In this document: positions 1,766 to 59,825 of the stretch, one piece after another
Layout: each line of letters starts with the position of its first letter
Position numbering within the stretch: position 1 is the first letter of the stretch
Assembly (NCBI RefSeq): GCF_964355755.1
Contig: NC_092675.1
Coordinates: 18,049,912 to 18,113,911 of the forward strand
Length of the DNA stretch: 64,000 nucleotides
Source of the DNA: Antedon mediterranea
Lineage: Eukaryota; Echinodermata; Crinoidea; Comatulida; Antedonidae
Direction of reading: 5' to 3'
Notes under the pieces: model-generated
Told to the model about the DNA's origin: nothing
The model's input: the letters and a program-made list of their open reading frames with translations, nothing else
Databases searched by the model: none
Program-made: the position numbers and the translations under genes

Positions 1766-2386
1766 ATGTCATTTAATGAGCCTGTGACAGCTGTTCATCA
1801 GCATCTCACAACATTTACACCAGCATCTCAAGATGAGATCCGCAACATTCTGATGAAATCACCAACAAAATCATGCAGGTTAGATCCAGTTCCTACTTCT
1901 ATACTGAAGAAGTGTATAGACGCAGTCGTTCCAATAATAACGGAAATCATTAACCATTCTCTTAATACCGGCATAGTGCCAGATGAACTGAAAATTGCTC
2001 ACGTTCGTTCTTTAATAAAAAAGCAAAACTTGGATCATAACACGCTGAAAAATTACCGCCCGGTGTCGAATCTTTCTTTTCTTGGAAAGACTCTGGAGCG
2101 TGTAGTGACATCACGCATTACTCCATATCTTCAAAAGCATAATTTAAATGAGAATTACCAGTCGGCATATCGTGCATGTCATAGCACGGAGAGTTCCCTT
2201 TTAAAGGTACAGAATGATTTGTTACAAGGAATGAATGATGGGAAAATAACGCTATTGGTGTTGTTGGATTTGTCAGCAGCGTTTGATACAGTTGATCACC
2301 AAAGACTGATAACCCGTCTGAGAAATTGCATTGGCATAAATGGTGTTGCTCTTAACTGGTTCCAGTCAGCTAGTCTGTATCAATGA
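1766..2386 (+). pseudogene. Reverse transcriptase, N-terminal half (frame 1)
   Basis: A 206-residue open stretch covering the finger and palm motifs up to AAFDTVDHQRLITRL and NWFQS. It loses homology in its last residues (ASLYQ), where the element shifts frame. The true protein continues in the frame that reads [16 protein letters not shown]. The first Met is probably not the original start, since the upstream region is decayed. Confidence 0.8.
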
Positions 2387-27000: not shown

Positions 27001-30000
27001 ACATATATGGACATGATGATGTCATAGCACGTAACACTTGTCAAACTAGTTTGATAGTATAGACAGAGATTAATAAATCAAAATTACTGTACCTCAGGAT
27101 GAGATGCAACACAAAAGCATTGATTACCCCCACTGTACATATTTCTTATGATCATGCCCTCTCCCTCTTCAACACCCACTGGGGTCTGATTTGGTCCAAA
27201 TGGTACCCATGGACCTTTGACCGTCATTGGGCTGTTGTGTGAAGCCCATGAACCTAGGCCTAGCTGACCATTGTCAGATGAACCAAAAGAGTATATTCTC
27301 CCTGAAGAACATACAAACGCTAAGGTATGCTTCCTACAGGTGAAAAATGTAAAAGCATAAGTGTTATATTTTATAAAACATATAATCATGAAGTATTACA
27401 GTTATTATGGGGACACTTTCAAGATTTACTGTAAGAAAGTCCCCCCCCCCCTTAATAGGGGTGTCCCCTGCGATTTTTTTACATTGAAAAGGGGTTGCTT
27501 GTAGTTTTAAAAAACAAATACTTCCTCTTATTAAAACATATATTTCTTCTCGTTCGTTTCACCATAGTCAATCTATTGACTATGGTTTCAAAAGAAAGTG
27601 TCCCTTTAATTAGAATGAATTGGAAAGAGCAGTTCTACTGTACAAAATATTAAAGGGAACCTTCTACAATTATCAGTGTTGTATCTGTCGGCATAGACTA
27701 ATAACATTTACAAATGAATATTGAACACACACGGTGAAGATATATTTTTGATTGGTCCTGAAAATTTTCTGGATTTTTTTCTTTTGGAGTGCTAGAATAC
27801 AAACCTGCCACATACAACTTGTGTAACAGTGCTCCCCATAAGTTCTATAACCTTCTTTGGGTTGATTTCATCTGTATTTACATTGTGTCCAAGCTGTCCA
27901 TTAGTGCCATCACCAAAGGTAAAAACACCTCCATTCTGTTGGGAAAAAAACAATTTAGATACTAATTTCTTCAATATAAGGCAAAACAAAGTCTCTACAG
28001 ACATTTTAGCTTCATTATATATGCAATATTGAGAAATGGGGTCGAGGGTCAAATTTCATACTTCCGGTCAATTTTTTTTTAAATGTTTCATTGGAGCAAA
28101 TATAATTACGTACATTCTGAATACGGTTGTGAAAAAATCAACTCTCTAGCATTAGTGGTTTCAAGATATAGGACAACTGTAATTTTTCCCGCTTATTTGC
28201 ATATTTTATTTAAATTTTACTAGTAATTTGCATACTTTTGAGGTGTGTGACAAAGGTGTGATTTTGGGAATTACAAAGTGGTCCTATGCTGGCTATTAGG
28301 AACCTATGCCTGGGTCATTTGAGGGCAAAGTAAAGTCTCTACAGACATTTTAGTCACACTGTGTATGCAAACATTGAGAAATGGGGTCGAAGGTCAAATG
28401 TTGTACTTCCGGTCACTTTTTCGTAAAATGTTTCATTAGAGTAAATATAAATATATACATTTTGAATTAATCAGTGAAATCAACTCTCTTGGACTATTAG
28501 TTTTTGAGATATGGTAACCCTGTAATTTCATCCTAATTTGCATATTTAAGCTAATTTGATCAAATTTTGATCTCCTCATTATATAGTAGAGAGGCCAAAT
28601 ACACAAAAGTCCTCTATAAAAAGTTTGGGGGGCATTTTTTGTTAATAGCAGGCAACCATGTTGAATGTATCCTTTGTGGGTGACAAAACCGATAGGGGTG
28701 GATGCCATCTTCAATTTTGAGTTTTAAGGTCAGTTTATGTGGTCAAGAGGTCAAACAAGGTCAATTTATAGAATTTTTATTTTATTCACGGAAAATCATC
28801 TACATCATCAGGTCCATCCAAAAAAAAAGATTTCTGAAGATCAACTGATGTTTCATATTATATATTATATATACTGATGAAAGTAAAGTAATTATGAGAT
28901 AAACATTTTATTTTACACATAAAAACATAGGAAATTAAATATAAAAGTGTCATTTTCTCAAAATGTTGTTTTCACATACTTCTGTAAAGTACACAGTTTT
29001 ATAATAGGCTTTCGATCCCCAGTCTGTTGTTAATTTGTCTTTTTTATCTATAAGCGATTTAACTATGGCAGATATACACAGGGTTGTTATTTGGGACAGT
29101 AAAGGCCAATTTACACAGACGAGCGGTAACGGTAATAAAAATATAGAATGTTATTCATTAAGAGCATTTAAACACGGAAGGACGGGCGGCTAGATACAGA
29201 TTCTATGTGGAACAAATTATGCGGTTTTTCGCTTACCATAACCGCTAGTCTGTGTAAATTGGCCTTAGGAATTAAATCATTACCGAAGTCAACATAACTG
29301 AATGGTTCTCCCCACAAGCTATGTATTTAACTTGCTGTGATCGAAGGCTCTTCAGATGAGTTGGAGCAAGATGATCTGAAATTAAAAGATTGATAAAAAT
29401 CAATAGAGCTGGACAATAAACAGTATATCAATCAACAAACCATTCCTAAATTTGGACCGGTGATGAGGAACGAACTCCCGTCGGTGATCCGGGAGCAAAC
29501 CACGGTTTTAAAATTTAAAAAAGCCCTCAAAACACATCTATTTCCTAAGAAGTGACTCATTGTTGGGTGTGCTGATGTAAAGCGCTTTGATCATTTTATA
29601 CTAATTTGGAAAAGCGCTATATAAATAAAATAATAATAATAATAAATGGGCATTCTAGTGTGTTTCTATCTATGTGTCAATTAGGTCAGTAGTGCAAAGT
29701 TTTGTACACTATCAAACTAGTTTTACAAAAACAATGTGCTGTGCCCAAATATTGAAGTGATATGAAATCATCATGTCCATAAATATGGGCACATCACATG
29801 TTTGTCACATAAAGTTTGATAGTGTAGACAGAGCTAATAAAGTTTAATGTTGGGGCTTGCAGTTGGGGTTTACTGTTACCAAATCTTACGACTGTATTGA
29901 CTATTATTTTTTTTTACATGAAAATTAATACCTCAGTTTAATTAAAGTGACCTTTTAATTTAAACAGAAATGCACTTATTGCAAGCCAGTATACCATAAG

Positions 30001-33000
30001 TGCCATAGAATGAGATACCATCAAGTAAAGTATCTTTAAAATGTTTCAAAATACTCAGACAAACACTACATTAATTCTAAAACAAAATACTATAATATCC
30101 AAGACAAAATCAGAATGTAGCAACATTTATAGTGATGATAAAGTAAGGTTTGAAGTAATTCCTAAAGGAGAAGGAAGTTGGTGATATCTTGATGTTATTA
30201 CAATCATTTTTTTTAATATAGTGGTGAATGGCAGTTTTTTTTTTATTTCATATGCAACAGCGAGCCAATTCTATTATACAATAAACTATTGCTTATAAAC
30301 TTAGTCAAAAAAAAAAAAGAGTCACAAGTTGGCACTAGGTCAGGATTGAACCTTGGGATTGGAAGCCAATCCACTACACTTATACTAAAAGTCAATAAAT
30401 AGGCTACTTAAGGTGGACAAAAAAAACTTCACCCAACCGACAAATAAACTGTAAAATAAAGTACCTTTTCTGTCATTTAAACCAAGCTGTCCAAAGTTGT
30501 TGTATCCCCAGCCAAATACGGCACCACTGACAGTCAAGGCAAATGAGTGCCAACCTCCACACACAATCTGCTTAAACGCAAGACCATTCAAGCATAGCAC
30601 CTCAATGGGACTGGAACATAATAAACGGGGTGAACCAGCATGGCCTAGCTGTCCATATTTGTTAGAACCCCAAGAAAATATCTTTCCCTCTGCAAAACAA
30701 AAATATTAAATTTGTACGAAAGCTAAAATCAAATGGCAATTAATAAAAAAAAAAAAAGACAAGCCACTGTATTCGATACTTAAAATTATTATCATTAAAC
30801 AGTTTTAAAATGCACTGAAAATCATTGAATCCATTAAAAAAGAAAAATAATCAATTCCTCAAGTTCAAAATTAAATGAACAATTATTAACTAAAGACATT
30901 ACCATGTCTAAAGCCTAAACTAAATACTAATTCAATCAATGAAGTATTCATCAAATTTGTAATTCATTTATTTTGTTGACTGAAGAAGGTAGCTTTTAAT
31001 ATTCAAAATACATGTTACGTAATCTGTAACCCATCCACCAATGGATGGGCACCATCTAATTAGTGAGATATGACGTCTTTGTGACCTGATTGTGATGTGA
31101 CAATTCAGGCAGAGAGAAAGAAAATGATTTGAAAAATACATTTTTCGCAAACAAATTGCTGTTCCAACATAGCTCAATGGGTGAAACAAAATTAAAAAGT
31201 GTCCCAATTCGAACGGTGCGAGTATTGGTTAGTGCAGTTTAGGAGAGAATAAGCTAACACATTTTGGGTTAGTTTTATTTTAATATTGAGAATCTATGCT
31301 ATATTTATGTCGAAGATAAAGTTGAAATATAACATCAAGAATATGTTAAATGTATTTAGCTATACATTACAGTGTGATGATGCATCATTAATGTGAAGCT
31401 ATCAAAGTCAAAGGAAATGATTAAAAGTAGGCATAGTAACAGGAAGACATTGAAAATTAGTATGCATTAATATAATTATTGAAAGCATACAGAGAGGAAA
31501 CTGTTCTGTAAAAGTAGTATAGCTTATATTATAAATAATCAGAGATGTATAATAGAAGAGAACATTGAATAGAAGAAAAACCCATCGACTAATCTAAAAA
31601 ATCCTTCTGTGCTGTAAAGAGTAGTACAGTCATGAATTTATAAGTCCATATTAGTATGGTTTATATAATGCTAGATTAGAATGTATAATAGATGAGAGGA
31701 TTATATAGAAGAAAAAACCATTGACAAATTTAAAAATCCTTCTTAGAAAGAGTTTTGTTCTGCAAAAAGTTGTACAGTAGTTTATATATTGTTTGATAGC
31801 AAAAAAATAGAAAGGAGCATTGTATAGATCAAAACAATTTTGACTCAGTTCAGTTCAGTTTTATTCGGTTCACTCAAAAATACAAAGACAAACATAACAG
31901 AAAAAAAAAAAGCACAAGATAACAATATTAAAAGAATGAACCGAGGAATAACCCAAGAAAGTTTAAATGAAAACTTATTTCCATTGGGGTCCTCAGACTA
32001 ATCTAAAAAAATCCTTCTTGAAAAGAAGCCAAGCCAATTTACAATTGTAATGTTGAGGTTAGAGTTCATGAAACCTTCTATCAATTGTATGCAGATCCGG
32101 AGATGCTGTTTTACATTAATTATTAATAAATAAAGTTAGGAGGAATGATTTTAAAATAAATGGAACTCCAATAGGTTTGCTTGGGTATAATAGTTTACAT
32201 TCAAAATGTCTAAACTTGTATAGAAAAAATAACACATTACATTCCAATCAGCAATGGCCTCATGACTATCACTTTTCAATATCATATTCTTATGTATGAT
32301 TTTCTTAATGAGCCCTAGCTAATGAACTACAATGTCAAAAGAGACTTTTATCTGGTATTTACAGTGTATTTTTGTCACTTACCTTTCGTAAGAGCTATAG
32401 AATGGTGTGAACCACATGAAACTTGAATGACAAAGTGATTTGATAAAGATTTGATGACTCTAAAAAATAATGACACGATAAAATTACATATAGTGTAGTA
32501 ATGCTCTTAAAAGGGCACCACCTCCACTAGCATACCATAGATTTATACACTGAGACCGACAAGTTACTGAGAAGCATAACAGAAAGCAAAAACAATAAAC
32601 AAAAAAGAAAGTTTTTAATAAATGTATATTATAATGAATAATACTGTCAAATCATAGAAACAATGCTCATATTCGGAACATGTACTCATAATCGCGTCGA
32701 GCATAGCTCATCGGCGAAAGTTTCGTACTTTTTAGTTGTACCTGCAACCTCTCGCTTATAAGGTGAGTATCATTCCGTTAGACCATATTTAGCAATAAAC
32801 ACAATTATTAAAATTATTAAGAGAGCTGTTACTTTTTTCTTTTCAAGTCTGTTCATTAGATGTTGGAAGTTCTATTTTGATGTCTCTTCATCCAGGTTCA
32901 CCTAGGGTTTGAAAGGGCTACTAGTGATAATAATCTGAAATAATACTTATAATACCATCCATTCTCAGACATAAATTGGATGAAAATACTCTTTAAAAAA

Positions 33001-33944
33001 ATATCATTATCAATGTTACCTTGGTTTACTTTTGGACTTGATTTGAAAGTCCATTGACCCTTGACCACATTGTCCCTCATTGTTCCGACCCCAACTCAAA
33101 AGTTGACCTCTGTCATTGACAACAACATTGTGCGCTTCTCCACAACTAGCTTGAATTACTGAGAAGGTTTCAAGTGCCTTAATTTGTTCTATAGACAACA
33201 AAGCATACATTTTTAATGAAGATCAATAATAAATTTCCTTAAATATTACAATTTTAGTTACTTAAATAAGCAAACTTATTATGGAATGATTATTATGAAA
33301 TCAAAAGCATTGTACACTAACAAAACGGCAGATTTTTTTTAGAAAAAAACTTTTTTTAACATGACGGCTTTTTTTTTTTTTTTTTTTTTTTAGAAATGCA
33401 GTTTTTTAATGACACTCATCAGTTATTTTAGGTCGATATCTATCTATTGGTAAATGGATGATGACCTATGACCTAAGACCATATTGAAATTGGCCATTAT
33501 GTGCATCTGCAAAAACTCTATTTAGGAATCAAGTGAGAAATCACAAGAAACTACAAGCAAAATGTCCTGTATCCACACAAAGAATTAACACGATTTAACT
33601 AGGTACCAATTCTTTGCTCCATTTTATATTTTTCATTTAATCCTTTGAAGGAAACAATCATTCAGGACCCTCAATAAAAGTATATAAATTCTGTACATGA
33701 TGCTATGCTAACCTGGGATGTCACCAGTCTTATCATATCCCAGCTGACCTTGGTCATTACTTCCGCAGCTATACACAGTACCATCTTCCAGTACAAAGAG
33801 TGTGTGCCATTGACCACAGGCAATTTGCCGGATGACACGATCCCGGAAATGTGTTACATCTACAGGATTCAAAGTGTCTCCATCTTCCTGATGGCCTATG
33901 CCAAGTTGATGATTCCTGTTTGATCCCCAACTGTAGATTTTCAT
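16698..33944 (-). CDS. HERC4: HERC-B: HERC4-like HECT E3 ubiquitin ligase (20 coding exons)
   Basis: Predicted 1,043-residue ligase, close in length and layout to vertebrate HERC4 (~1,057). Coding exons, minus strand: 33944-33713, 33188-33020, 32459-32383, 30689-30465, 29375-29284, 27935-27805, 27333-27093, 26037-25853, 25148-25043, 23904-23715, 23557-23409, 22110-21994, 21481-21389, 21053-20838, 20452-20357, 19427-19309, 18938-18741, 18090-17907, 17513-17411, 16906-16698 (TAA). Phases join exactly (3,132 nt). Residues ~1-390 form seven RCC1 repeats, ~390-710 a helical linker, ~715-1043 the HECT domain; the catalytic Cys is at ~1011 (LPAAHTCFNLLDLP). HERC3/4 are cytosolic E3s that take ubiquitin from an E2 onto this Cys. 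The first coding exon extends 5' as UTR to an acceptor at ~34,034, so at least one non-coding exon lies upstream. HERC3 and HERC4 cannot be told apart here; invertebrates usually carry one HERC3/4 ancestor. Confidence 0.93.
17560..17850. repeat. Degenerate tandem repeat in HERC-B intron 18
   Basis: Three to four diverged units built from GGAATCATG..TCTATGGAATGC, ATTTGGTGCATTAAAC and TCAATGAATAA. Units differ in length, so it is an old, irregular array. Confidence 0.7.
19487..19744. mobile_element. Palindromic retroelement fragment (Penelope-like candidate) with 13-bp TSD
   Basis: Two ~95-bp arms (about 19,533-19,624 and 19,634-19,731) are inverted copies of each other with a very short spacer. 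Both carry GATAAAGTTTGC/GCAAACTTTAT-type ends and a GAAACGTC motif. The element is flanked by the direct repeat AGTATACAATTAA (19,487-19,499 and 19,732-19,744), a 13-bp target-site duplication. The GATCAA-loop-TTGAT-GAAAC-GTC arrangement resembles the hammerhead motif found in the terminal repeats of Penelope-like elements. It lies in HERC-B intron 15. Confidence 0.7.
19963..20203. repeat. Tandem repeat, 84-bp unit, ~3 copies
   Basis: TTTAATCAAACTG starts at 19,963, 20,047 and 20,131, an exact 84-bp period. Each unit contains CAACTGTTACCTACTTATC and CCTTCAATCTAACAATTTAG. Copies are nearly identical, so the array is young. Related GGGCTTC words precede it from 19,870. Confidence 0.9.
20712..20823. 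mobile_element. MITE family M1 (GCTCTGTCTACAC), copy 1, 3'-truncated
   Basis: Starts AGCTCTGTCTACACTATCAA, has the internal GTAATGTGCCCAAAT, ATGACATCATC and ATATGGGCACATCACATTTG words, but loses the right inverted terminus. It ends ~15 bp from the splice donor of HERC-B exon 14 (20,838). Confidence 0.85.
22355..23151. mobile_element. Foldback/MULE-like element with repeat-built TIRs and perfect 9-bp TSD
   Basis: Element 22,364-23,142 starts GGGTGTCTAGAAAACTCAGA and ends with its inverse (...TCTGAGTTTTCTAGACACCC). It is flanked on both sides by GACAGGCTT (22,355-22,363 and 23,143-23,151), a perfect 9-bp target-site duplication. Each end is built from tandem, self-palindromic units of TCTAGATCTAGAAAACTCAG plus ATATCTGA. 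The core holds several TACGAGTTGG motifs (22,684-22,752). No ORF. The TSD length suits Mutator-like elements. It lies in HERC-B intron 11. Confidence 0.88.
24005..24225 (-). mobile_element. tRNA-derived SINE family S1, diverged minus-strand copy
   Basis: Reads, in diverged form, the inverse of the S1 element at 43,521-43,830: TGCCAATT/GGCCA head region at the right, and GAGAAGACTTG, GTGCACAC and GTACACATG words in the same order. Confidence 0.55.
24253..24510 (+). repeat. Dispersed repeat D1, copy 1 (~250 bp)
   Basis: Shares AAAGTCTCTACAGACATTTT, GTATGCAAACATTGAGAAA, GGTCAAATGTTGTACTTCC, AAATGTTTCATT, ATCAACTCTCTCGGACTA and CCTAATTTGCATATTTAAGC with copies at 27,984-28,235 and 28,325-28,565. 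No TIR, tail or coding content is seen; the family is unknown. Confidence 0.85.
24788..24943. mobile_element. MITE family M1, copy 2
   Basis: Both inverted ends are present (AGCTCTGTCTACACTATCAA at left, TGATAGTGTAGACAAGG at right) with an internal short duplication (ATATGGTAGTGATAT / ATATGGTATTGATAT). It lies in HERC-B intron 9. Confidence 0.85.
25214..25436 (-). mobile_element. tRNA-derived SINE family S1, minus-strand copy
   Basis: Near full-length inverse of the plus-strand copy at 43,521-43,830: CTGGGTGACCTC...AGACTGGTCTCC...CACCGGGGTAACCCCCTACT...GTACTAGGTTCTTTAAAGTG...GTCTTAACCGCTTGACCGCC. The last word is the inverse of a Leu/Ser-type tRNA head. Confidence 0.8.
26121..26629. mobile_element. 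MITE with ~45-bp TIRs and TTAT flanks
   Basis: Left terminus TAGGGAGGTTTCGCAACGCT...AACGAAAACGG (26,125 on) and right terminus CCGTTTTCGTTATAGTATTC...TGCGAAACTTCCCTA (to 26,625) are inverted copies over about 45 bp. TTAT flanks both sides. About 500 bp, non-coding; a 3-4 bp TSD (TTA or TTAT) would suit PIF/Harbinger-like families. It lies in HERC-B intron 7. Confidence 0.82.
26967..27074. mobile_element. MITE family M1, copy 3 (short)
   Basis: GCTCTGTCTACACTATCAAA at left and TTTGATAGTATAGACAGAG at right bound ~105 bp. The internal order is inverted relative to copy 4 and it lacks the central block. Confidence 0.85.
27093..33944 (-). CDS. HERC-B, RCC1-like (RLD) seven-bladed propeller, exons 1-7
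   Basis: Clear RCC1 repeats: YSWGSNRNHQLG and CGQWHTLFVLEDGTVYSCGS (exon 1), ASCGEAHNVVVNDRGQLLSW (2), VSCGSHHSIALTK (3), FSWGSNKYGQLG and CGGWHSFALTVSGAVFGWG (4), IACGENHSVMLTS (5), FTFGDGTNGQLGHN and VTQVVCGRKHTLAF (6-7), YSFGSSDNGQLGLGSW (7). Intron phases 1,2,1,1,0,2,0 match HERC-A wherever the two can be aligned. Confidence 0.93.
27409..27612. mobile_element. Small MITE-like element with GGGACACTTTC ends
   Basis: GGGGACACTTTC at left and GAAAGTGTCCCT at right are inverted, ~200 bp apart. Inside are a poly-C run (27,438-27,450), GGGTGTCCCCTG, and a palindrome CCATAGTCAAT-CT-ATTGACTATGG at 27,562-27,585. Confidence 0.6.
27984..28235 (+). repeat. Dispersed repeat D1, copy 2
   Basis: Matches copy 1 over its length (AAAGTCTCTACAGACATTTT, GAGAAATGGGGTCGAGGGTC, ATCAACTCTCTAG) with more substitutions than copy 3. 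Same orientation as copies 1 and 3. Confidence 0.82.
28325..28565 (+). repeat. Dispersed repeat D1, copy 3
   Basis: AAAGTCTCTACAGACATTTT through CCTAATTTGCATATTTAAGC. It is closer to copy 1 than to its neighbour copy 2, so the two adjacent copies are not a simple recent tandem duplication. Confidence 0.85.
29100..29267. mobile_element. MITE, AGGCCAATTTACACAGAC termini (168 bp)
   Basis: Left end TAAAGGCCAATTTACACAGA continuing CGAGCGGTAAC; right end GTTATGGT/ACCGCTAGTCTGTGTAAATTGGCCTTA is its inverse over ~30 bp. Probably a TA target duplication. A truncated relative is at 15,587-15,670. Confidence 0.85.
29457..29645 (+). mobile_element. 3' end of a CR1/L2-like retrotransposon
   Basis: Encodes the typical RT C-terminus (NELPSVIREQTTVLKFKKAL followed by KTHLFPKK and a stop), then a short 3'UTR with AAGCGCTATATAAATAAAAT and (AATAAT)n. 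Same class of tail as the element at 1,766-3,440, but a different subfamily. It lies in HERC-B intron 4. Confidence 0.8.
29702..29838. mobile_element. MITE family M1, copy 4
   Basis: TACACTATCAAACTAG at left, GTGCCCAAATATTGAAGTGA and ATATGGGCACATCACATG inside, AGTTTGATAGTGTAGACAGA at right. The right terminus is intact; the left has lost its first ~8 bases. Confidence 0.85.
30322..30395 (-). repeat. tRNA-like SINE head fragment
   Basis: GGCACTAGGTCAGGATTGAACC is the inverse of a B-box (GGTTCAATCC). The same sequence recurs at 43,108-43,136. Confidence 0.5.
33366..33393. repeat. Poly-T tract
   Basis: About 20 consecutive T within a T-rich stretch in HERC-B intron 1. It may be the tail of a retroposed sequence; no homology is visible. 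Confidence 0.5.
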
Positions 33945-34470
33945 AAGGGCAGTTGAGATTCAAAACCCTTGGTGGAAAACTGTAGGCCTACGTCATTCAA
34001 AACTGGCTTAGAGTCTCTGTTGCATAAATTGAATCTGAAAGAAAAACTGAAACATAAATATGAACTACAAATTATTATTGTATACATTTTTCTTCTTGGT
34101 GTAAAAAAAAAATCACGCAAATGGTTTAGTTAAATATTAAAAAATGATAAATGGATTCAGTAAATTCACAATTAGTGATTCATAATGTAGCTACTTCTAA
34201 TACTATAATATGCCTACATGTCTGCAAGGCTAGTTCTATAGACCGCACTGCTGGAGGACCTGATGGTTTACAATGGTCACGTTTGAAATCGGTCTTATTT
34301 AATTTTGGTCACACTAAAATCAACTGTCAGCATTTGTATGGCACGTCGCTATCTATGCTATGATGTCATTGGCACTTGAAATCGGCGGCGTTTTATAGTG
34401 CTTGTGCTATTTTGTATGGGGCGCAATATACATTTTGGTCATAGATTTATTATTAGATTTACACTTTCTG

Positions 34471-37136: not shown

Positions 37137-38140
37137 CTCATGGACATACCACAGATTGTGTTATTTTTCTGCTTGGCAGCTAGGCTAAAATGTTATGAAG
37201 ACAGAACCGACAGAATAACCCAGAGCTCTCAGGCCTCCTAACGGTCTCTGGGCCGTGATCAATCAAGAAACTTAAACCAGTCTAGCGCCATCTATTTTGC
37301 CCTCTAAAAAAAAAAGTATTACGTAACCATTGATGTGTGATTTTAGGGGAATTTCCAAAAATATATTTATATTGCAAGTACAGTCATTATATTGTTTCTT
37401 TTGGTAATAAAGCCCACTGTAAGCAGTCTCTTAATAGTTTTGTGGTAAGTATATATGGCATATACATTTTCAACAGCATATATTTACCTTGATCATTTTG
37501 TTTTAGGCCTAGGCCTACCTAGCTAGGCCTAGGTATGTACGTAGGAAGGAGCGGCCGCAACGTGACCTTCTCTGCCTAGTAGTACCATATAAGCCTATAG
37601 TTAGATTCTTGAATGTATACGAAATTTATGCACTGTTTTTTTTTTGTGTTTGGAATATGTGTTAGTTATGAATTATTAAATTTAATCCTGTGTAGTTATA
37701 TGTTTTTTTTCTGTCCTATTATCATGCATCATAATAGTGTATATTAATGAGAGATTTTAGATTCAGCAGTAAGTAAACCATATTTCAAAATTATTCTACT
37801 ACAGTAACTACATTGTGTTTACTCTTCAATCTGTTTATGCAATTATTTAGCAAGCTTTTGAGGGTAATCATGCACACTGTTTAATGCAGTGACTGCCTCA
37901 TGTAACTTCTAGATTTAAGGATACAAACATTATACTGTACAGTAACTTAACTGCAGTCGAGGAATTGACGTGATCCCTAACTACAATTTTGGAGTTTAAT
38001 ATCTTCTATTTTTAGACAAAGGGACAAAACCTATTGTATTGAATATACTAATATGTTCCTGTTGTATTGTGATTTGTGGCCTTTGTGAAAGTTAACTTTT
38101 AACCTTGTAACATATATTTTTTTCTTAAACCTAAAAATAG
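37137..38140 (+). promoter_or_regulatory. Probable 5' region of the coiled-coil gene
   Basis: The first coding exon begins after an acceptor-like TAAAAATAG at 38,140, three bases before the ATG, so a non-coding exon should lie upstream. A strong donor, GTG|GTAAGTAT, is at about 37,444. No TATA box was identified. Otherwise only AGGCCTA motifs are seen. Confidence 0.35.
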
Positions 38141-38143
38141 AAA

Positions 38144-41100
38144 ATGTCTGACAATTTGGATCCAGAATTAAGACAATTTTTGGCAGATAATGTCACAAGA
38201 TTACAAAAATTAAACATTGAACGTGATGAAGCAACGCATGCGATGAAAAAGTTAACATCTTTGTTACAAACGACAAGATTGTCGTTAAATTCCTATAAAG
38301 AAAAAAGTGATATGTATGAACTTATGGTGTTACGAGATGGTAGCCATATTAAGCGCTTGAAGAAAATAATTTCCAAGAAAGAAAGAGAGATTTTGAACTT
38401 AAAATCTGCTAGGAAAAGTTCGGAGTATGGAGATGATGATCTTGAAACTGATGGAGTAGAGCCAGACGTAGAAAAACAAACAAGTACAAGTGTAAGCATA
38501 CTATTTCTACTTGACTGCTTATTTTAGCGCATATTCTTTCTACTTAAGCGCGTATTCAAGAACTGCTCAATGTACAAGATTATAATTGAAACAGTTTGGC
38601 CAGTTTTTGGTATTGAAAATGATTTTAATAATTGGTTTTTCAAAAAATTGCTTCCTGGTACAGTACATGTTCAAAGCACTTACAAAGTACAAACCTTTTT
38701 TCTTTCGTAAAATGCAGAGTGCTGAACTATTTTAATGTTCTTTTTTACATTGTACATTTCAAAATTTTAAGTGGAATCATGAATTATTGAATCCGCCTAT
38801 GACCCATTTGACACTTGTTATGTCATGTGTTTGGCCATTATTTTCTTTATCATTCTAGCATAAATTGTTGAAATACACACGCTAATATAGTATAATGTTA
38901 CTTTTTTAAAGACGTTTTTACACATGTGTTTGGCAATTGTGTTCCTCATCATTCTACCATATGTAGAATTGTTAAAATAAAAAAACTAACAATAAAACAC
39001 TTTTTTTTAAAGTATTAATTTATGAGGCAGTCAAATACAGTAGGTGAATAGATAAGGAATAAACTGCATTATTATCATATTATTACCAAAACTAAAACTA
39101 TTAAATTAATACTGTATTTTCATATATACCATTAGTATCATGTAACAAGATCAGTACTAGTGATATTTCAAAACAAATTGTTATTTTTAGAAAGATGGTG
39201 AACCAATAATTAGTGATGTAAAGCCAGATGCATCTGAATTTGTCTATGGAATTTCTCATGAAGTTTATGACCAACTCCTGCGAGATCATATTCAACTTAA
39301 AAAGGAATTAGAAAATTTGATACAAGCAGAAAAGATTAATCCTAGCAAATACATGGTTAGTACATGGAGGTATAAAAATCTCCATGGTTAGTATGAACAT
39401 ATTTCATTTGTTGCATCAGAATCCAATAATATAAGCAGCATCATACCACAATGTTTACAAACATATGGTGATTCATGTTGGAATTTTATGTAATGGTAAA
39501 AATGTTTATTATGAAATAATTCTTGTCATTATGAAACTAGTTTTTAAACTAAACAAGCTCTCAACAATATTTTTTTTTTTAATTACTCTAGGAAACCAGT
39601 TAAAAAACAGTTTCCTAGGCGGTCTGGATTGGAATCAATTTGTTTTTTTTTAGATTATTTCTAACTCCTACTGGCAATAAAAAACCTGTACTTTCAAGAA
39701 TGTGTTTAACCACATTCTCTATCAATAGAAATAGAAGCAATTAATATGAAGTCACTGAAAGTGGAAATTCCATAAAACCATAAATAACATCTGACCTTGT
39801 TTAACTACCCTGGGAAAAATACCCTGGATCATTATTATTTCTGAAACATGATAAATAAAATGCTGCCCTGGGAAATTAACCATGGATCTTGTTATTTGTA
39901 GCTTGTATTGAATTTAATCATAAATTACCATATACACTAGCTAAACTTGTACTATAAATTAATATGATATTCACGCGGTATGCCGGAAAACTTATTTTTA
40001 ATGTGTGTATACAGTATTACCTATATCTCAGACTTTTGATTCATCAGTATTTATTCAAAGTAGGCCTATAGTGTGTATTCTACACTTTGGTCGAAATAAA
40101 ATTAAAAAAAAAACCTTTAAACAAAAGATTTCAGTCTTTTTATGAGTGCATGAAAGTACATTTTGTGTTAGTTTTAAGAACAAATTTAAATTCATACTTT
40201 CATTTTGGTAATTTTTGGTTTTTACATAACCACACAATTAATAGAAAAATTGAATGGTATTGTATACTTCTTTTTATTGTTTGGATAATTTAACCTAGAT
40301 TATTAGGTAACCTTATAATTCAATGTGTACATTACTAATCTTTATTGTGAATACAGTACTTAATACACTGTTAGAGGTTGTGCTCATTTGTTTGATTTCC
40401 CTCTAGTATGTGTAGCCTACATCTATATGGTTCTCAGAAGCTTTATTGATACTAGTACCTTTTTAGTTTATTTAATTTCAAAATTGACATTTGCTGATAG
40501 ATTGTGTATTACATTGTTATCTATTTCTAAGATAAGTAGAAACAATGGAAAAAACATTTGTGTACACATATTTAGATTGATACCAGTTTTAAGTACTCTT
40601 GCTTAAGTATACATTAATTTCTGTTTTCTTTTAACATAGGAAGATGAAGAAAGAAAAGTACTAATAACTCAACTAGAGAGGTCTAATTCTGAACTCAAGA
40701 GTCAGATAAGAAAACTAGATAAAGATTTACAAGATGTTACAAATATTATTAAAAGTGACCCTAGAAGTAATCAATCAAAGGTTTTAGATTTGTCACAACA
40801 GGTAAGTGAGTACCCAATACTTATTGAATACTTTCAATTCAAGCATTTTACTGGTATCCAATATGTATCTCTCAATATTAGAAGAAGAAAAAGCATGTCT
40901 TTGTTATGAATGGAAAACTCTTCTTTTTAAACTTGGATTGGAGATTGCAAAAAAAATATAGAGGGAGTCTTTTCATTGTTTTCGGTTCTTGATAGAAATG
41001 CTTTTTCATGATTGGCTATTTCTTTTTGAGAATTCAAAATCATTAACAATTATCAGGATGTGTTCAGTTGCTTTATTCCCCTTCAAGTGAATATTTTATT

Positions 41101-44100
41101 TTGTTTATATTTTATTTCAGTTAAAATCTTTAGAAGATAAATATAAAAGGCAAGAAATTCTATTACATTGTATGGAAGACAAATGTCAGGATTTAGCTAC
41201 TAAGTTATTAGAGTTAAAAGAATCAAGAAAAGATAATGTAACACCTAAAGAAATAGAACATTCTGGCGCAGCCTTTTCTGCCACAGTGGCCAAGGTAGGA
41301 TTGTTTAAATGCAATTTACTTTCACCTTTCTGCCACAGTGGCCAAGGTAGGATTGTTTAAATGCAATTTACTTTCACCTTTCTGCCACAGTGGCCAAGGT
41401 AGGATTGTTTAAATGCAATTTACTTTCACCTTTCTGCCACAGTGGCCAAGGTAGGATTGTCTAAATGCAATTTACTTTCACCTTTCTGCCACAGTGGCCA
41501 AGGTAGGATTGTTTAAATGCAATTTACTTTCACCTTTCTGCCACAGTGGCCAAGGTAGGATTGTCTAAATGCAATTTACTTTCACCTTTCTATATATATT
41601 TACATTATATTGTTTGCAGGGTGAAAACATTGATACACATAAATCAATATATTTACATTATTTATAACATCTATGAAATAAAAACAAGAAAAATAATTTT
41701 ATTAATAAAATTTATAAAAACGGTAGTTTTATATAAGCACCTAATACAATGTTATTACGAGCTTTACACACAAAAATAATCCATAAAATATCATAAGAAA
41801 AAAAGAAGAAAACCAGAGAAACTATTGAAGATGGGAATTGATTTCCTGAAACATGTTTGTATGTATCGTAAGTTTACTACTAAAACGTGTAGTATTATTT
41901 ATTGAATTGAATTGAAATTTATATTTATACTGGGTAACCTCTTCAGTCAAAGACTGGTCTCCCAGAGGGCCCAGTTGCTGATCAGTGGCTGTGATGTACT
42001 CATACACCGGGGTAACCCCCTACTCGTCTCGAAATATGTACTAGGTTCTTTAAAGTGCACACTTAATGTTCCTCAGTACTCCTGACCCTCGGAAATACAA
42101 ATTATTTTTAACAATTTTTTCTTTTATTATGTAGTGTGATAATTCTGAATCAACTGTGACAGTAGATCAGGAAGTCAAAGATTTGAGAATTAGCAACAGT
42201 GCGCTCCAGTCAAGTCTTGAAAAAAGTCATCAAAGGCAAAAACTGTTGACTGAAAAACTGAAATCTGCTGAAATAAAATCACAGGTAATCAAAGTACCGC
42301 AGCAGTATTGCATCTTCCGACCGCAATGTTCATCCTAAGGATCCCTCGCTTTCAAGGAATGGATAGAAAATTTTATTGATTATAATAATTATTATAGTTT
42401 TCATGTCTTCTTGAGCCCTTGCAGGTTTCTATGGAATAACTTATGTATATTTAGTTATTATCAGAGATAGTATGGGAAAAAAAAGGAATACGGTATTATT
42501 ATTATATACTGGTCAAGTAAACTGACCAGTCCATCTTTCAACTTAAGAAAATATTCTATTCATTCTACTAACATTCATTATTTGTAGACTGAATACTGTA
42601 CAAACACTATGTAAGTCTCTTTTAGTTAACTAAAGTCGAAAAATATTAAACACAAATTTGCATAAGGTTGTGCTTCAAAAGCACTTGGTTTACTATGCTG
42701 ATTTTTTTAAATAGCATTTTATTTGGGACCTCATGACATTTATTGTAGGCTATTTTCTGCCAAATATATTTCTAAAATTTGAAATTTTAACTTTGTTATT
42801 GTAACAGATTTTTGAACAGCAGTATCAATCACTATTAAGAGCTCCGAAAGAAAATAAACAAGTTGTTGACAAGTGTGAAAAATGCTCTGATATGGGAAAA
42901 AAAAATGAAGAATTAAAAAAGGAAAATGAAGAACAGAAACAAATTAATGGACACCAAAGTGCACAGGTATTTATCTTAATTTTTATATAACAACAATTTG
43001 TTTTTGTTTCATACGCATTCAACAGCAAGATAGTTGGCAATTAAATAATGGATAAACTGTAATTCATCATGTTATAAAGTCCATGTAGTAGAAAGAGTTA
43101 CTTACAACCCTGGCACTAGGTCAGGATTGAACCTCGGACCTTGAGTTTGGGAGGCAAGTGTGTTTAGAGTCAAGCGGTTAAGGCTGATAAACTTAAGGCT
43201 GAGGCCCAGTGTGTTGGGCGTTGGACTACTGATCGTGAGACCGAGGTTCGAATCCAACTCTCGCTGCATTGCTTGTATCCGTAGCCAAGATACTTTACTT
43301 ACGTTTTCCTCTCTCCAGCCAGGTGTATAAATGGGTACCTGGTTAGATCAAGACACAACTTTGCGCTGATTACTAGCTGCATTATGGAAGCATGTTTCCA
43401 TACTTGTTTGATCCAAAAAAAATGACTGGGGTAATAATGTTCAGCGCATTGAGAGCTTGCTTATATGCGCTTTATAAGAATGAACTATTATTATTATTAT
43501 TAAATACCATTCACATTGAATGAGTGGCCGAGCGGTTAAGACAGTGGAACCGTAATTACGTAGCCATAACATCGGCAGGGGTTCGAGGCTCACTCACTCC
43601 ATGGTTCTGGTGGTAGAATGAGTCTTCTCGGATAAGGACTATAAACCGTAGGTCCAGTGTACACATCTAGCTCGTGTGCACTTTAAAGAACCTAGTACAT
43701 CTTTCAAGACAAGTAGGGAGTTACCCCGGTGTATTAGTACATCACAGCCACTGATCACCAACTGGGCCCTCTGGGAGACCAGTCTTTAACTGAAGAGGTT
43801 GCCCAGTATAAAGATATATTTCAATGGGTTTTATGAATTCTAAGAGCTGCTTTTGTAAAAGTAAAATATAAAGTTATTTTTCAATTTGTTACAGTTAACT
43901 GTTTATATTGAAGACTATAACCAATCAAGACTGGAAATAACAAATTTGAAGAAAAGAAATGAATCTGAAGTGTCACAATGGAAATTAAATTACACCAAAT
44001 TGAGTGAAGAAGTAAGTTCAAATGTTTTTACTGTTTTGTTCAACTCTTTATTAATGTTTTCCATTTCTATACTATTTCTATATTAGAAAACTAAGCGTAG

Positions 44101-44878
44101 TCATAAGAAAATTCATTTACTGTCCTTCTTAAAGGTGACAAAAACATACACAAGATGCGCTACATAAACAAAGTCTTAAGTTTTTTGGAAGTGGATTTGT
44201 GGAATAAATCCTGGCATTTGGAACACAGGCTAAGGATGTTAACCACCAAGTCCAAAAATTATTATAGTCAGTAGCGTAATGGCTATGAGCGGTCTATGGC
44301 TAAACCCAGGTGGCCCCAGAGCAGTGCCTAAAGGGAAAAACAGACATTAAAATATGTCGAAAGAGGCTAAAAACGCCCGACCTCCGGTGTTGGAAAGCCA
44401 CTTAGGGTTCCTAAACCAGAGGCCTCTGCATTACTTCACTGATTACAGTACTGTATATATGTACGTAGAAAGATACGTTGACAACCGCAGTTTGTTTTGT
44501 TTTATTACAACTGAAATTATGAATGAATAATAATGAATTTAAATACATTTTTTGCAGTTGGAAAAAATGAAAAAGGCTTTAGAATCACAACAGCAGGTAA
44601 ATTCAAGGCTCAGAGCTGAAAATGTAAGAAGACGGGCTCCGACAGTACCTGAGCCATATCAACAACAAAGCTGGGCTGACTCGTCCTACCAACAACCAAT
44701 TATAGATGTTTGTGATGAAACACAAAACTCTTCTTCTAATCGCACCCGTCGTGAAGCTGCTACAGCTCCTTACCACAGCACCACCACTGAGCTTGTATGC
44801 CCGCGCTGTAAACGGGAATTCCCACAATATCAAGAGACAGAGTTTAATATACATATGGGGCGTTGTTTACACGATTGA
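38144..44878 (+). CDS. Coiled-coil protein with C-terminal CEP55-type zinc finger (NEMO/optineurin/CEP55 class), 8 coding exons
   Basis: Predicted 531 residues. Exons: 38144-38491, 39191-39355, 40640-40801, 41121-41294, 42135-42284, 42808-42966, 43895-44011, 44558-44878 (TGA). Every intron is phase 0, so each exon adds whole codons. The protein is almost all Lys/Glu/Gln/Leu coiled coil. Exon 7 carries VYIEDYNQSRLEITNLKKRN, laid out like the ubiquitin-binding UBAN/NOA motif (DFxxER type) though its key residues are only partly kept. The C-terminus is a CCHC finger: C506, C509, H524, C528 (CPRCKREFP...IHMGRC). Its spacing (Pro, nine residues, His, three, Cys) is that of CEP55, a midbody/cytokinesis scaffold, and differs from optineurin. 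Likely role: oligomeric ubiquitin-binding scaffold, cytokinesis or NF-kB/autophagy type. Ortholog identity is inference. Confidence 0.85.
41278..41592 (+). repeat. Six-copy 52-bp tandem repeat spanning an exon-intron junction
   Basis: CCACAGTGGCCAAGGTAGGA starts at 41,281, 41,333, 41,385, 41,437, 41,489 and 41,541, an exact 52-bp period, almost without mutation. Copies 4 and 6 have GTCTAAAT where copies 1, 2, 3 and 5 have GTTTAAAT. Copy 1 contains the end of coding exon 4 (GTG GCC AAG) and its donor GTAGGA. Each later copy therefore repeats the donor, and the unit end TTTCACCTTTCTGCCACAG makes a fair acceptor in front of TGGCCAAG. Confidence 0.95.
41925..42085 (-). mobile_element. tRNA-derived SINE family S1, partial minus-strand copy
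   Basis: Tail half of the S1 inverse: TACTGGGTAACCTCTTCAGT, AGACTGGTCTCCCAGAGGGC, ACACCGGGGTAACCCCCTAC, TACTAGGTTCTTTAAAGTGC. It lacks the tRNA-like head. It lies ~50 bp upstream of coding exon 5. Confidence 0.8.
43096..43165 (-). repeat. tRNA-like SINE head fragment
   Basis: CTGGCACTAGGTCAGGATTG followed by AACCTCGGACC is the inverse of a B-box region, shared with 30,322-30,395. Confidence 0.5.
43196..43503 (+). mobile_element. tRNA-derived SINE family S2
   Basis: A tRNA-like head with a perfect B-box (GAGGTTCGAATCC, 43,243-43,255) is followed by a body (CAGCCAGGTGTATAAATGGG, TACCTGGTTAGATCAAGAC) and a tail TATGCGCTTTATAAGAATGA with (ATT)n. That tail resembles CR1/L2 3' ends, suggesting the partner LINE for its mobilisation. 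Confidence 0.8.
43521..43830 (+). mobile_element. tRNA-derived SINE family S1, full-length
   Basis: Begins GTGGCCGAGCGGTTAAGACA, a textbook A-box of a Leu/Ser-type tRNA, followed by a B-box-like GGGGTTCGAGGC (~43,577). The body contains ATGAGTCTTCTCGGATAAGG, CTTTAAAGAACCTAGTACAT, GTTACCCCGGTGTATTAGTA and CTGGGAGACCAGTCTTTAAC. Three more copies lie in this window on the minus strand. Confidence 0.85.
44100..44275 (-). mobile_element. tRNA-derived SINE family S3, diverged copy
   Basis: Shares CATACACAAGATGCGCTACA, TAAACA(AA)GTCTT, TTTGGAAGTGGA and GTTAACCACCAAG with the copy nested at 55,224-55,398. It lies in the last intron of the coiled-coil gene. Confidence 0.65.
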
Positions 44879-47335
44879 TCAGATATGAAAAAATTAATCT
44901 GTACATTAACTTTTAAATCAGTATACTGTATATTGTGTTCTATGCTATGATGCCTAGCTACTGTAATTATCATTGTACTTCATGTTTGATAAGTCAAGAA
45001 CTCACATCTGAACCTGAATATTCTATGTATTATAGCTTTGTACACAATACTGTATTTTCTTAGGGCCTACAGCAAAATTTAAATTGCGTTTATTATTTTA
45101 TGCTCTTATAGTAGTAGTAGTATTGTAATTGTAATGTTTAAATTAAATTATTTTAGACAATAATTTTCCTTAAACGTAAGTAAAATTTTGAATTTGTTAT
45201 GATTATTTATTAACAATTTGGTATTACTTTAATTTTATTGTCAGAATCTTGAATTAAAATAGTATAGTATATAAGTGAATTTCTTTTAAAATCAGTTTGG
45301 CTCTTGCTTTTTATTTTTGTTGGCTACGCACTATATACTTTAATTTGCCTCTTATATTATTTAGAAACTGTATTATTTAGTTATGTTGCACATGTGTTTG
45401 AATAATATAGGCTTAAGATAAAATGGTGATGTCAAAATGAAACTATTAAATGTAACATTTTGTGAATTTGTTTGCCTTTTACAACATTCTTGTATACTAA
45501 GTTATTGTAAACTTAGCGTACTACTGTATAATCTATTTGTATAATAATGTATTTTTTTTGTATGCCTACTGAGTAAACCTGTTTGTATTTACTGTATTTG
45601 TATGTTGGCCTACTGAATCTACGTTTATCAAAATGGCACTCTCGAATATACGACAAGTCAATGTTATCCAGAACATAAAGAAACATTAATGCAACATATT
45701 TACTGTACTTTTTATCATTTATTAATTATTTAACAATAATTTGTTTATAATCGTCAGTATAACACACGAAGAGACACGCATTTTCAGCTGAGTTTAACAC
45801 GTGTGCCACGTTTCCATTTTCTCCATGTGGGTTGCTGACAACATTGAACGAATCTTAGTAAAAATACTATTTATTCTAAGTTAACAGTAAAGTAAGCATA
45901 AAGCAATAGGTTATTTGATTACAGTATCTTTTACGATTTGACTGAATGATAATCATTAGGAACGAAGCATCCGGGTTGTCCCTTTCCATTTTCCCCCCTG
46001 TGTCTCAGGCAGGCCAGGAAAGAGTGAAAGTATTGTAATTTCACTCTGGGGAGACCCGACTCAAGATCTAGCAACTCTCTGGAATCCTGCCTTTTTATTC
46101 AGTCAACTCTCCCAATACCGGACACCTTTGGGCTGGCCAAATATGTCTTTTTCATAAAGTTTGGTAGTTGGAATGTATTTTAATGGTTAAAATGAATTTG
46201 GGACTATTTGGAGTTCGAGGAAAGTCTGGTATTGGAAGAATTTCCAGTGTTCGAAGAATCCGGTTTTGGAAGAGTCGACTGATTATTTATATTATCTTGA
46301 ATTGAATATCCATTGTTAATAATGGTATGTCTTAAGTTAGTATTGAGTAACATGCCTTTCTTACCATCATTATTGAAGTGACTAAACAGTGCAAAGCGGA
46401 GCGTAGATGTATTATTTAAGCAGGTTTAATGCTGTATTTTACAAGCCAATATTTTGTATTCTTAAAATTATTGCAAATTTATTATTCCTAGCAGCCTACA
46501 TCGATTTTTCTCACACATTAATAATTTAATGCTTTAATGACATTGACAAACAAGGCACTGGAAATAAATAATTTACAGAAAAAATGAACATAACATTTAA
46601 CAATATGTTATTATTACAACTTTACTTTTACTTAGTTCAAAACACCTTCGCACCAAAATTGTATATGTATAATTTGAATTTGAAGTCACCTATAATGTGT
46701 CGTACAAAAATAATGCGTTACATAATTTTACAAAATTACGAAAAATATAATTAGGCCTACGAATTATAAAAACATATTTTACATAAATACAAATGTATTC
46801 ATCATGTTACGTTGCATAAACGTGGTAGAAATAAATTTAAAATTTAGCCTAATTCTAACAAGAAAATAATACTGTGCAATTTGGACGCGCTGTAGAGTGT
46901 TTTTCTTTTGTGAAATTGCTCCTCTTTGATTAAAACATTGTATCTATGCCGACTGTTTGAAAGAGTTTTTGTTTTTCGTTGACGGAAATCTAGCGGCGTA
47001 AATGGGCTGAGTAAAGTGTCATTGAACCAAGAGTTTATGAAAAAAACACAATGCAAATTCAAACTCATTGTTTATTTTAGTGGAATCACGCTGTTTAAAA
47101 GTAGGCGCACATAAAGTCGACTTACACCTGATTTGCTCTGATTATTTTTTTGTGATCAAGCTCAGGCCTATTCCACATCTTACCGTATATTGTTTATCTT
47201 CCTTATTGCTAACCCGTATATGAGTATAAATTAGGTATAAATTCACAACCATAAGCCCTATTTACATGTTTATACAAGCCATCATATGGCACAATGTCCA
47301 CGATTTCCTAAAACACCACTCTACTGAAAACACTC
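44879..47335. other. Intergenic region (coiled-coil gene 3' flank / FSTL 3' flank)
   Basis: The two genes are convergent here. No ORF of merit. It contains one Tigger/pogo-like MITE (46,099-46,280). A TTTATT at 47,071-47,076 reads AATAAA on the minus strand, ~260 bp past the FSTL stop, and is a plausible polyadenylation signal. Confidence 0.5.
46099..46280. mobile_element. Tigger/pogo-like MITE (~180 bp)
   Basis: Ends CAGTCAACTCTCCCAATACC and its inverse (CCGGTTTTGGAAGAGTCGACTG) match over ~23 bp with CCGGA beyond. The CAGTC start is typical of pogo/Tigger-type termini. ATT flanks both ends. Family call by terminus only. Confidence 0.65.
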
Positions 47336-57313: not shown

Positions 57314-59825
57314 CTGTTGAAGAAACAGAACACAGAATGCAGTGTTAATATTTATAGTCTATTCATATGGAAATATTTGTTAAATATTGTTATTAGATTC
57401 GACATATTGCAGCAGGCTGCCTGTGTATTGTTAATAACCAACCCGTGTTGCATTAATCTGACATAATTAATAACTTCCTCCTGTGTTGAAATAATCAATA
57501 TTCCTAAGTAAGAAAGTGTAATTCTTTTCACTAAGCAATAAAACATACGATATGAATGGGCCGCAGTATGTATTATATGATTTGGATGTGTGTGACGTAG
57601 TAAACGTGCATTCAATGTATTTAAATAAGAGACTTATCTAGTAACGTTGGAAAAAAATCTTTACCAGAAATGATACTATAGATCGCCTTTATGTTTTGTA
57701 TTTTGTAAAGCATTAATTACTATTATAAATCCATGCACACATGTATGGCCCTGAAAACATCAAATATGTTCTGATCGCAAAAGGCGCCTAAGAACCACAC
57801 CATTATTTAAACTACTATCACGTGATACTAAATTAACATAAGAGTATAACATTAATTGAATAACTAATAGTAATTAGTATTTCATGTAAAATTAATCATA
57901 AAGCCTTTATCGACATATATTAGTACAAAACCCAGGAATGGCATCGTAATTGTTATGAATAAATTATCATAAAGACATTGAGAATTAAATGTAAACGAAG
58001 GTGAACTTCAAAATCGAACAACTGGTTAAAATACACAATAATGATATAGCATTAATATTCAGGTAAATGTACTTTCGTAATTCATTCAAACCAACGTTGT
58101 TTGATCCGTTCAATATTAGTCATCACATTGATATCTACCTTATTATTGTATAATAAAACCGTGTGCTTCTCTATTATAACAATACTGTCGTTATTTTAAT
58201 CAAGAGGAAGTTAAATATTTTACTTTATACTATAGCATAATATAGAAAAACACATTGCCGTAATTTTGTTCTTAAATACTAATAGGCCTATAGTTTCTAT
58301 ACGTTAGTAGACAATGTATTGTGAGTCGAAGATGCTCTCTGATGGAATAGCATTCTGAGATGAAAGTGTCTCATATTGTATTTAGTCACTTATATACTTT
58401 TATATAAATGTGTTAAATAAGTAAAATCGTTACTGAATTGTTGATAAATTGCATGACATTTCTATAATATTGATGATTGACGTCGTTTCAAAATATTCAG
58501 GGAATTGAACCATGTCCATCCGATTGTTCGCTCCGTGGCAAACAATTTCATTTCGTTTTGTTCTAAAACCACACAGTCACGTACCGTACCAAAGTGACAG
58601 GTAAGTCACTCAAAATTAAAAATAAATAAACAACAACAATGTGGTTACTTTACGCAAGGACATTTTAGGCGACACTTTGGAGTTGAAAACCGTGGATTTA
58701 TATTGTGTATTCTTAAAATAATTGCCTATAGCACAATGTAATATTTCAGTGTGGGAAAATATAAAGGTCATAACCAATTATAGGCATACCTACACTTTAT
58801 TTTTAGGTCATAATATCAAAGTTATAAAATAATTTCTCCGGCACTTTTCATCAACAAAAGAATATCTTGATAAATTACAGAATTATGTGTCTAAAATGTT
58901 AAGGTTCTGGTAAGAAAGACAGTGAAATGTTATCAAATTTTGACGTAGTGACACATCTAAAGTTCTATCTATACACTATCACATTATTATGTGACAACAC
59001 AATGTGATGTGCCCATATATGGACATGATAGTGTCATATCACTACCAATTTGGAAATATCACTACCATATTTGGGGATAAAATAGTTTGGTAGTGTAGAC
59101 AGAGCTTAAGAAAATGAAATTAGGAAGAATTAAGAATTTTAGAAAGATTGAAGAGAAATATTAAGATGGTAATAGTATAGAGACAGGACTATTCCTCATA
59201 CGCCTCTTAACGCCACTTGGTAAATTATTCATTTACATTAATACAAACTATTAATTGGAGAAATGGGATTGAGTCGGAGAATAACGTTCATTATCATAAC
59301 TTACATGTTATAGAAATAATCAAATGTACAGTAATTCAATTCAGATGTATGCATATTTTAAGAGGTTGAATTCTATATATTGTGTTTAATATTCACATAT
59401 TCTCCGTACAATCCACCAGAATATAAAATCACATTAAAATCATCTAAATTGATTTCCGCAGAAGTAAAAGCATACAGGTAGGTATAATGTATTATAAATC
59501 TGACATATTAGAATATCTTTCGGCTATAGTTTAATATTCAATAACACATTGTGCATAATCCTATACTCTATTGTAGTGCTGTAGTCGTGTTGATAATGGT
59601 TTAAACATGGCAGTCAAAATTCATTAGTCTAGTGGATAGTATCATGGTATGAACATGGAGGTAGTAACACATGTTATACCTCCTCATTCAGTCACATTAC
59701 AAAGATAGATACATAAAAAGATAAATATTTACTTTTAATTCTTCTGATAATAACATTTACACATGCAATTCTTTTCGTATTGATTTCGGTATCTTGAACC
59801 ACCCTTTTTAGTGCTTCATGGTATT
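57314..59825. other. Putative FSTL 5' intron/flank, no gene seen
   Basis: AT-rich DNA. The only recognisable item is MITE M1 copy 6 at 58,959-59,110. No exon with supporting splice sites or homology was found. Confidence 0.45.
58959..59110. mobile_element. MITE family M1, copy 6
   Basis: Diverged left end (GTTCTATCTATACACTATCA) and clean right end (TTTGGTAGTGTAGACAGAGC). The centre has ATGTGCCCATATATGGACAT and TATCACTACCAAT, in the opposite orientation to copies 2 and 4. Confidence 0.82.

Follow-up and report, generated by a model that had tools for sequence, protein, structure and literature searches.

Mirage minisatellites, in which the repeat unit spans an exon-intron boundary and multiplies a splice signal, have been described in amphioxus: in Adh3, in the globin genes BflGb6 and BflGb9 and in troponin C, with similar repeats in PGBD5. 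Their units measure 10-72 bp in Adh3, 150-160 bp in BflGb6 and 157 bp in BflGb9 (PMC3087553), and 60 and 108 bp in PGBD5, where the repeats are similar and imperfect (PMC3902484). With regard to splicing, the Adh3 data and reverse transcription polymerase chain reaction on the globins are said by the authors to suggest that regular splicing is undisturbed, although cryptic use of the repeated sites is considered possible (PMC3087553); the mirages of Adh and troponin C are said to generate no aberrant mRNAs (PMC3902484). A literature search found the term in this sense in the lancelet literature only, its other use being a cited title on speciation. Here, we analyzed a stretch of 64,000 nucleotides from the crinoid Antedon mediterranea (contig NC_092675.1, positions 18,049,912 to 18,113,911 of the forward strand; hereafter the window, whose coordinates are used for the host gene and its array). 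A 52-bp minisatellite at 41275-41591 on the + strand, at the end of a coding exon, shows both sequence features of a mirage, namely a boundary-spanning unit and a repeated splice signal. We consider it highly probable that this array is a nearly neutral mirage minisatellite, with splicing at its first donor and excision of the remaining copies as part of the intron.

Anatomy of the 52-bp array and its host gene

Tandem Repeats Finder (TRF) described the array with a period of 52 bp, 6.1 copies, 98% matches and a score of 620, which is the top score among its 24 rows for the window. The GC content of the window is about 32%, and the regularity of the array is far beyond chance. The unit joins the last 20 nt of exon 4 (41275-41294, the exonic part of copy 1) to the 32 nt with which intron 4 begins, and so contains the donor AAG/GTAGGA (the slash marks the exon end), so that the tandem unit crosses an exon-intron boundary whose exonic side is set by the reading frame rather than by a homologue. 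This splice signal is present in 6/6 copies, and TGGCCAAGGTAGGATTG occurs six times, from 41287, every 52 bp, to 41547. The sole difference among the six units is that copies 4 and 6 carry C in place of T. The first unit opens with TTTCT, a 5-bp direct repeat that is found again directly after the last copy. When two units were used as a DNA query, the whole 354-Mb genome (354.4 Mb in 18 contigs, with 353.5 Mb in 11 of them) was matched at this array only, in a search that skips very common words. A sequence-only reading of this stretch had already recognized the coding exon's donor in six copies, which is borne out by TRF, by the comparison of units and by the reading frames; it had placed the array at 41278-41592, and while the array itself stands, these bounds require correction to 41275-41591. 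The same reading had attributed the T-to-C change shared by copies 4 and 6 to recent unequal crossing-over, and the pattern does fit an exchange of copies within the array. The first duplication may have arisen by slippage or unequal exchange at the TTTCT direct repeat, after which further exchange would have added copies; the change shared by copies 4 and 6 would fit the duplication of a two-unit block.

The host gene was modelled from open frames and splice signals. Its coding model (38144-44878, + strand; ATG at 38144, stop at 44878) comprises 8 exons encoding 531 aa, without internal stop and with all introns in phase 0, and the predicted product is a coiled coil with a C-terminal Cys/His motif. 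Exon 4 (41121-41294) is 174 nt long, and exon 5 (42135-42284) is the phase-0 continuation of the frame from donor 1. The last 306 aa of the protein found genome matches at this gene's exons only, and searches of Pfam and PDB returned weak zinc-finger-like matches alone, a UBZ model among them. The protein may conceivably be akin to NEMO/optineurin-type proteins. A search for RNA families in 38000-45500 gave no match at the gathering score.

Splice sites were scored with a generic consensus matrix. The six donors, all on the + strand at 41295-41300, 41347-41352, 41399-41404, 41451-41456, 41503-41508 and 41555-41560, score alike and rank second best of the gene's seven donors, and site strength therefore cannot separate them. 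The reading frames give distinct predictions: donor 1 is the sole donor yielding the full 531 aa, donor 2 leads to a stop just inside exon 5 (301 aa), and donors 3, 4, 5 and 6 each give a predicted truncated product of 304 aa because of the in-frame TAA at 41358-41360, which is reached when donors 1 and 2 are skipped. A latent acceptor AG (41337-41338), followed by the 8-nt TGGCCAAG of copy 2 (together 41337-41346, + strand), recurs every 52 bp to copy 6. These acceptors score 3.94 in copies 2-6, against 3.49 for the best of the gene's seven real acceptors, and the stretch before TGGCCAAG in copy 1 is exon sequence with an acceptor score of 2.62. If one to five of the resulting 8-nt micro-exons from copies 2-6 were included, three together would be the only number keeping the frame; the introns between repeat copies would be 44 nt long, and a frame test of single pseudo-exons from copies 2-6 found none that yields a full-length product. 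Among the products tested, the frame is thus kept by donor 1 alone or by three micro-exons, and nearly all products of later donors or micro-exons would be broken proteins.

These results modify the sequence-only reading in several respects. Its acceptor before TGGCCAAG at each unit end is found in copies 2-6 and does not extend to copy 1, and its stop near 41,360 holds for donors 3-6 and not for donor 2. Its account of latent splice signals is otherwise fair, and the frame consequences that it drew for the later donors agree with our computation. Regular use of the later donors or of 8-nt micro-exons is unsupported, given that the later donors all truncate the protein, that the micro-exons are mostly out of frame and that the introns would be 44 nt; alternative splicing at the array is nevertheless unproven rather than disproved.

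Two further elements lie close to the array. A strong acceptor at 41620 adjoins it on the 3' side, and 41620-41667 forms a 15-codon frame ending in TAA and followed by two AATAAA motifs. It is possible, and unproven, that this segment could act as an alternative last exon; the AATAAA motifs carry little weight because they are expected by chance in AT-rich DNA. Similar copies of a dispersed repeat are found at 41906-42082 (+, in intron 4) and at 43642-43785 (-, in a later intron), with the shared translation RLVSQRAQL.ISGCDVLIHRGN

Exon-end arrays elsewhere in the same genome

Beyond the anatomy and the frame consequences established in the window, the same structure was found at other exon ends. 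Seven further exon-boundary arrays were met while exons of conserved families were being fetched as controls, six of them at donors and one at an acceptor, which gives seven donor-type arrays and one acceptor-type array with the window included and the series of myosin genes on C3 counted once. No rate can be derived from these numbers, since the further arrays came to attention through TRF output and visual inspection. The seven donor-type units measure 52, 72, 47, 36, 23, 58 and 82/83 bp, and 5/7 are not multiples of 3, as would fit untranslated copies.

One parallel is a myosin VI gene (C7:203965-205182, L049 with L080), in which the exon ending in HFAGAVCYQT has its donor within an array of 21 copies of a 58-bp exon-end/donor unit, followed by the next exon AEFIEKNNDALH. 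Joining the exons at donor 1 gives 86 residues that align with myosin VI throughout (E 1.7e-31), and with donors 2-21 the frame stops after 52 residues in each case. The donor letters are identical in 21/21 copies. Variation among the units is confined to four positions, of which three belong to exon-derived sequence and the fourth is located where units meet; in a single copy, the former reading frame is interrupted by a stop codon. The same intron also contains another array, of 70 bp x 4.1 (L080, 2039-2322).

On C3, at about 19.6-25.1 Mb, 19 or more myosin-head genes or gene copies, closely related to one another (L061-L079), extend over about 5.5 Mb. These are all the C3 matches of this segment among those listed, with 65/335 candidates scored, so that the cluster may have further members. 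In its coding part, the segment is similar to myosin heads (best E 0.006). Among the 19 matches listed, the exon end is single in 14, present twice in three (L063, L074, L077), three times in one (L064) and at least six times in one (L069, where the array runs to the end of the piece); in at least four single-copy paralogues (L062, L065, L070, L078), the start of a second copy comes next. An open exon is found in 17/19 paralogues, including all five that carry repeats. Exon-end copy number thus drifts while the coding copy stays, given that it varies from 1 to at least 6 among these paralogues and that the exon is open in all repeat-bearing ones. On C1, two neighbouring stretches at 19159516-19159647 and 19159687-19159821, 171 bp apart, both match residues 107-152 of the myosin head model and possibly represent a duplicated exon.

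The remaining arrays belong to ABC-transporter-like genes. Within the ABCA-like locus L005 (C8), three donor arrays were identified: 72 bp x 7 (reaching the locus edge), 47 bp x 2 and 23 bp x 8 (continuing into L082). The related ABCA-like locus L004 (C8) is single-copy at these boundaries, by pattern for the 23-bp one and by reading for the 72- and 47-bp ones, and has a 36-bp donor array of its own with 12 copies (continuing into L081), in which the first spacing is 56 bp and the last 39 bp. Among the eight donors of the 23-bp array, the frame is preserved by donor 1 alone. ABCA homology supports the 23-bp exon (E 5.7e-5) and the L004 counterpart of the 72-bp exon (E 9e-6). The 47-bp exon of L005 found no match in a PDB search and is assigned through its paralogue in L004, with 17/21 residues identical, and the 36-bp exon of L004, for which a Pfam search gave no match, is assigned by its open frame, its start resembling a paralogous exon in L082 (28/40 identical). 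The acceptor-type array is found in an ABCB-like locus on C3 (L015), where a 70-bp unit in 7.1 identical copies repeats the acceptor; the coding part of this locus gave weak ABC-transporter matches only. A donor-like array in L022 (70 bp x 11.8) is unconfirmed and was left out of the count, because its coding part found no relative. An in-frame coding repeat of 30 bp, THDETTPLLS, was also observed in about three copies in an ABC-transporter locus (L007, 33-134).

Three tests gave no clear sign that tandem repeats prefer donors. Genome-wide, 269 pairs of CAGGTAAG are spaced 24-54 bp apart (start to start), against 300 for the reversed motif. In the sampled DNA, 2985/74356 positions (4.0%) lie in local duplications, as do 12/207 strong donors against 5/210 for the reversed motif, and the 12 cases can be traced to three places, two of them in L005 (with seven and two copies) and the third read in the overlapping loci L039, L043 and L044. 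The corresponding values for medium donors are 111/1036 (10.7%) and 80/1079 (7.4%), both above the 4.0% background, or 27 against 20 places when counted by 600-bp bins, and 1231/28023 weak GT sites fall in such duplications. For these counts, L001-L003 and L016 were dropped as overlaps and other overlapping or paralogous loci were kept, so that some were counted more than once. A further sample was drawn from 50 no-stop matches chosen from 158 listed, one of which lay outside any locus, with boundaries picked by score rather than homology and close paralogues counted separately; in the 49 Pfam-matched exons, 0/77 scored boundaries and 0/1062 exon-interior positions were duplicated. About three of 77 boundaries would be expected at the 4% background (0.96^77 = 0.04, by arithmetic), and conserved exon ends may therefore be depleted of duplications; conserved exons as a whole seem to be less affected than average. 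In the host gene of the window, 1/14 boundaries is duplicated. Since the tests show no clear donor preference, the arrays are accounted for by a genome that is rich in minisatellites and tolerant of repeats where exons end, and special machinery need not be invoked. The donor excess (seven against one) may reflect that the donor side keeps the first copy, whereas the acceptor side must use the last and skip the earlier ones; having been counted by eye, it may also be a viewing bias, as donor motifs are easier to spot than acceptors.

Several other features were observed in the window. A dispersed 21-bp minisatellite family close to GTGATATGCCCAAATATGGTA is present at 24819-24879 and 59036-59074, and also in the sampled loci L006, L008, L010, L021, L035, L040, L045, L048 and L057. 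Long open frames at 1736-3371 resemble, by eye, a non-LTR (long terminal repeat) retrotransposon reverse transcriptase. On the - strand, two neighbouring sets of exons, RCC1-like and HECT-like by eye, occupy about 4344-14550 and 16701-33959 and are probably tandem HERC-type genes. Elsewhere in the genome, searches gave two innexin-like matches and none for arthropod cuticle, GFP or connexin, the latter three having been run with no positive control.

Splicing outcomes considered for the array

The frames, the parallels in the same genome and published tests on other genes all point to exon 4 being paired with donor 1. Excision of intron 4 would then take away the latent acceptors together with the five donors further downstream, the protein would remain unchanged, and the array would be tolerated rather than used. 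With regard to the published tests, a human reporter library in which both tandem donors matched the consensus is reported to use the first predominantly (PMC6783452). Several points nevertheless weigh against this reading. The choice of donor 1 is inferred from frames, parallels and published tests; the human library, as described in the account cited, concerned two donors and not six, and contexts that break the rule are described there (PMC6783452), and other species may differ from human in donor choice. In Pfam and PDB, no match to the 531-aa protein or to parts of it exceeded a curated cut-off, and the end of exon 4 and its join to exon 5 are therefore placed by reading frame. The latent acceptors outscore all the real ones, which makes some aberrant splicing possible. 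Finally, two C3 myosin paralogues, L068 and L076, both single-copy, carry a stop in the exon that is open in the others, and these two may be pseudogenes.

The extra donors might instead tune the output of the gene, if some transcripts used donors 2-6, met a premature stop and decayed, so that copy number would set gene output. The premature stop behind each later donor and the equal strength of all six donors are in line with such a role, as is the variable copy number at a comparable exon end among the C3 myosin paralogues. We nonetheless regard it as unlikely, given that the first of two consensus donors dominates in the human library (PMC6783452), that the lancelet parallels are reported to be spliced normally in the accounts cited (PMC3087553, PMC3902484), and that myosin VI of the same genome has 21 donors, of which donor 1 alone continues the conserved protein. 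Considerably less probable still is that latent acceptors and donors define 8-nt exons or pseudo-exons of 60-216 nt that give rise to protein isoforms. The high scores of the acceptor-like sequences in copies 2-6 speak for such exons, and three micro-exons together would keep the frame; against them, one, two, four or five would truncate the protein, none of the single pseudo-exons from copies 2-6 leads to a full-length protein, and exons of 8 nt would have to be separated by introns of 44 nt. Moreover, the repeated acceptor needs no selection, because it shares the 52-bp unit with the donor.

A similarly slim chance applies to intron gain by tandem duplication at the array, for which the unit does contain CCAAGGTAGG, i.e. 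AGGT, and for which there are published cases of gain by tandem duplication, one of them described as running across an exon-intron boundary (PMC4974935; PMC3443670). Here, the duplicated block is already inside an existing intron, skipping all of the block gives the full protein, and no new exon is apparent. The least probable explanation, with hardly any weight in our judgement, is an assembly artefact in which copies were multiplied or misjoined. There is a precedent in the lancelet mirage BflGb6, which, according to a supplement legend, appears wrongly assembled in the genome draft (PMC3087553). The present array is merely 317 bp long within a contig of 31.7 Mb, has an internal variant pattern and is accompanied by several independent arrays of a like sort in the genome, all of which argue for its being real. 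A nearly neutral mirage that is spliced from its first donor therefore remains the preferred reading, and the likely biology is quiet, with the extra donors of an exon-end minisatellite being spliced out unseen.

Relation to known systems and significance

The choice among equal donors has often been studied in built reporters, whereas this genome offers a ready-made series: six donors in the window, 21 in myosin VI, and 19 C3 myosin paralogues with 1 to at least 6 copies. We suggest, with low confidence, that the several genes with 2-21 like 5' splice sites reflect either a strict first-donor rule or the tuning of some genes by poison splicing. If a strict first-donor rule holds, boundary minisatellites could grow freely on the donor side, and the donor-side excess, counted by eye as seven against one at an acceptor, would be its footprint. 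The series could also show whether mirages arise generally where genomes are rich in minisatellites, and whether they supply new exons and introns.

Among related systems, intronic variable number tandem repeats such as those of ABCA7 and MIR137 have in common with the window array a variable repeat linked to splicing; those repeats are linked to changed splicing in people, whereas in the window the donor is itself part of the repeat unit. Several donors per exon are likewise a feature of tandem alternative 5' splice sites, and in the human library the first of two equal donors is reported to be preferred (PMC6783452); the window differs in having six identical donors, 52 nt apart and derived from one repeat, of which the later ones are candidates only. 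In the published cases of tandem-duplication intron gain, potato RdRp and ATP2A1, a duplicated AGGT or boundary segment is described as multiplying splice sites (PMC4974935; PMC3443670), which is also seen here, but the copies of the window array lie inside an existing intron and have produced no evident new intron or exon. The amphioxus mirages have a boundary-spanning unit and a repeated splice signal in common with the window array, whose unit measures 52 bp; splicing was examined in amphioxus, whereas the window array is known from its sequence. The genomes also look different: lancelets have about 41% GC and 19-20 chromosomes, against about 32% GC in the window and 11 large contigs that make up 353.5 of 354.4 Mb. 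It seems to be one of a series of such arrays in a genome outside the lancelet cases.
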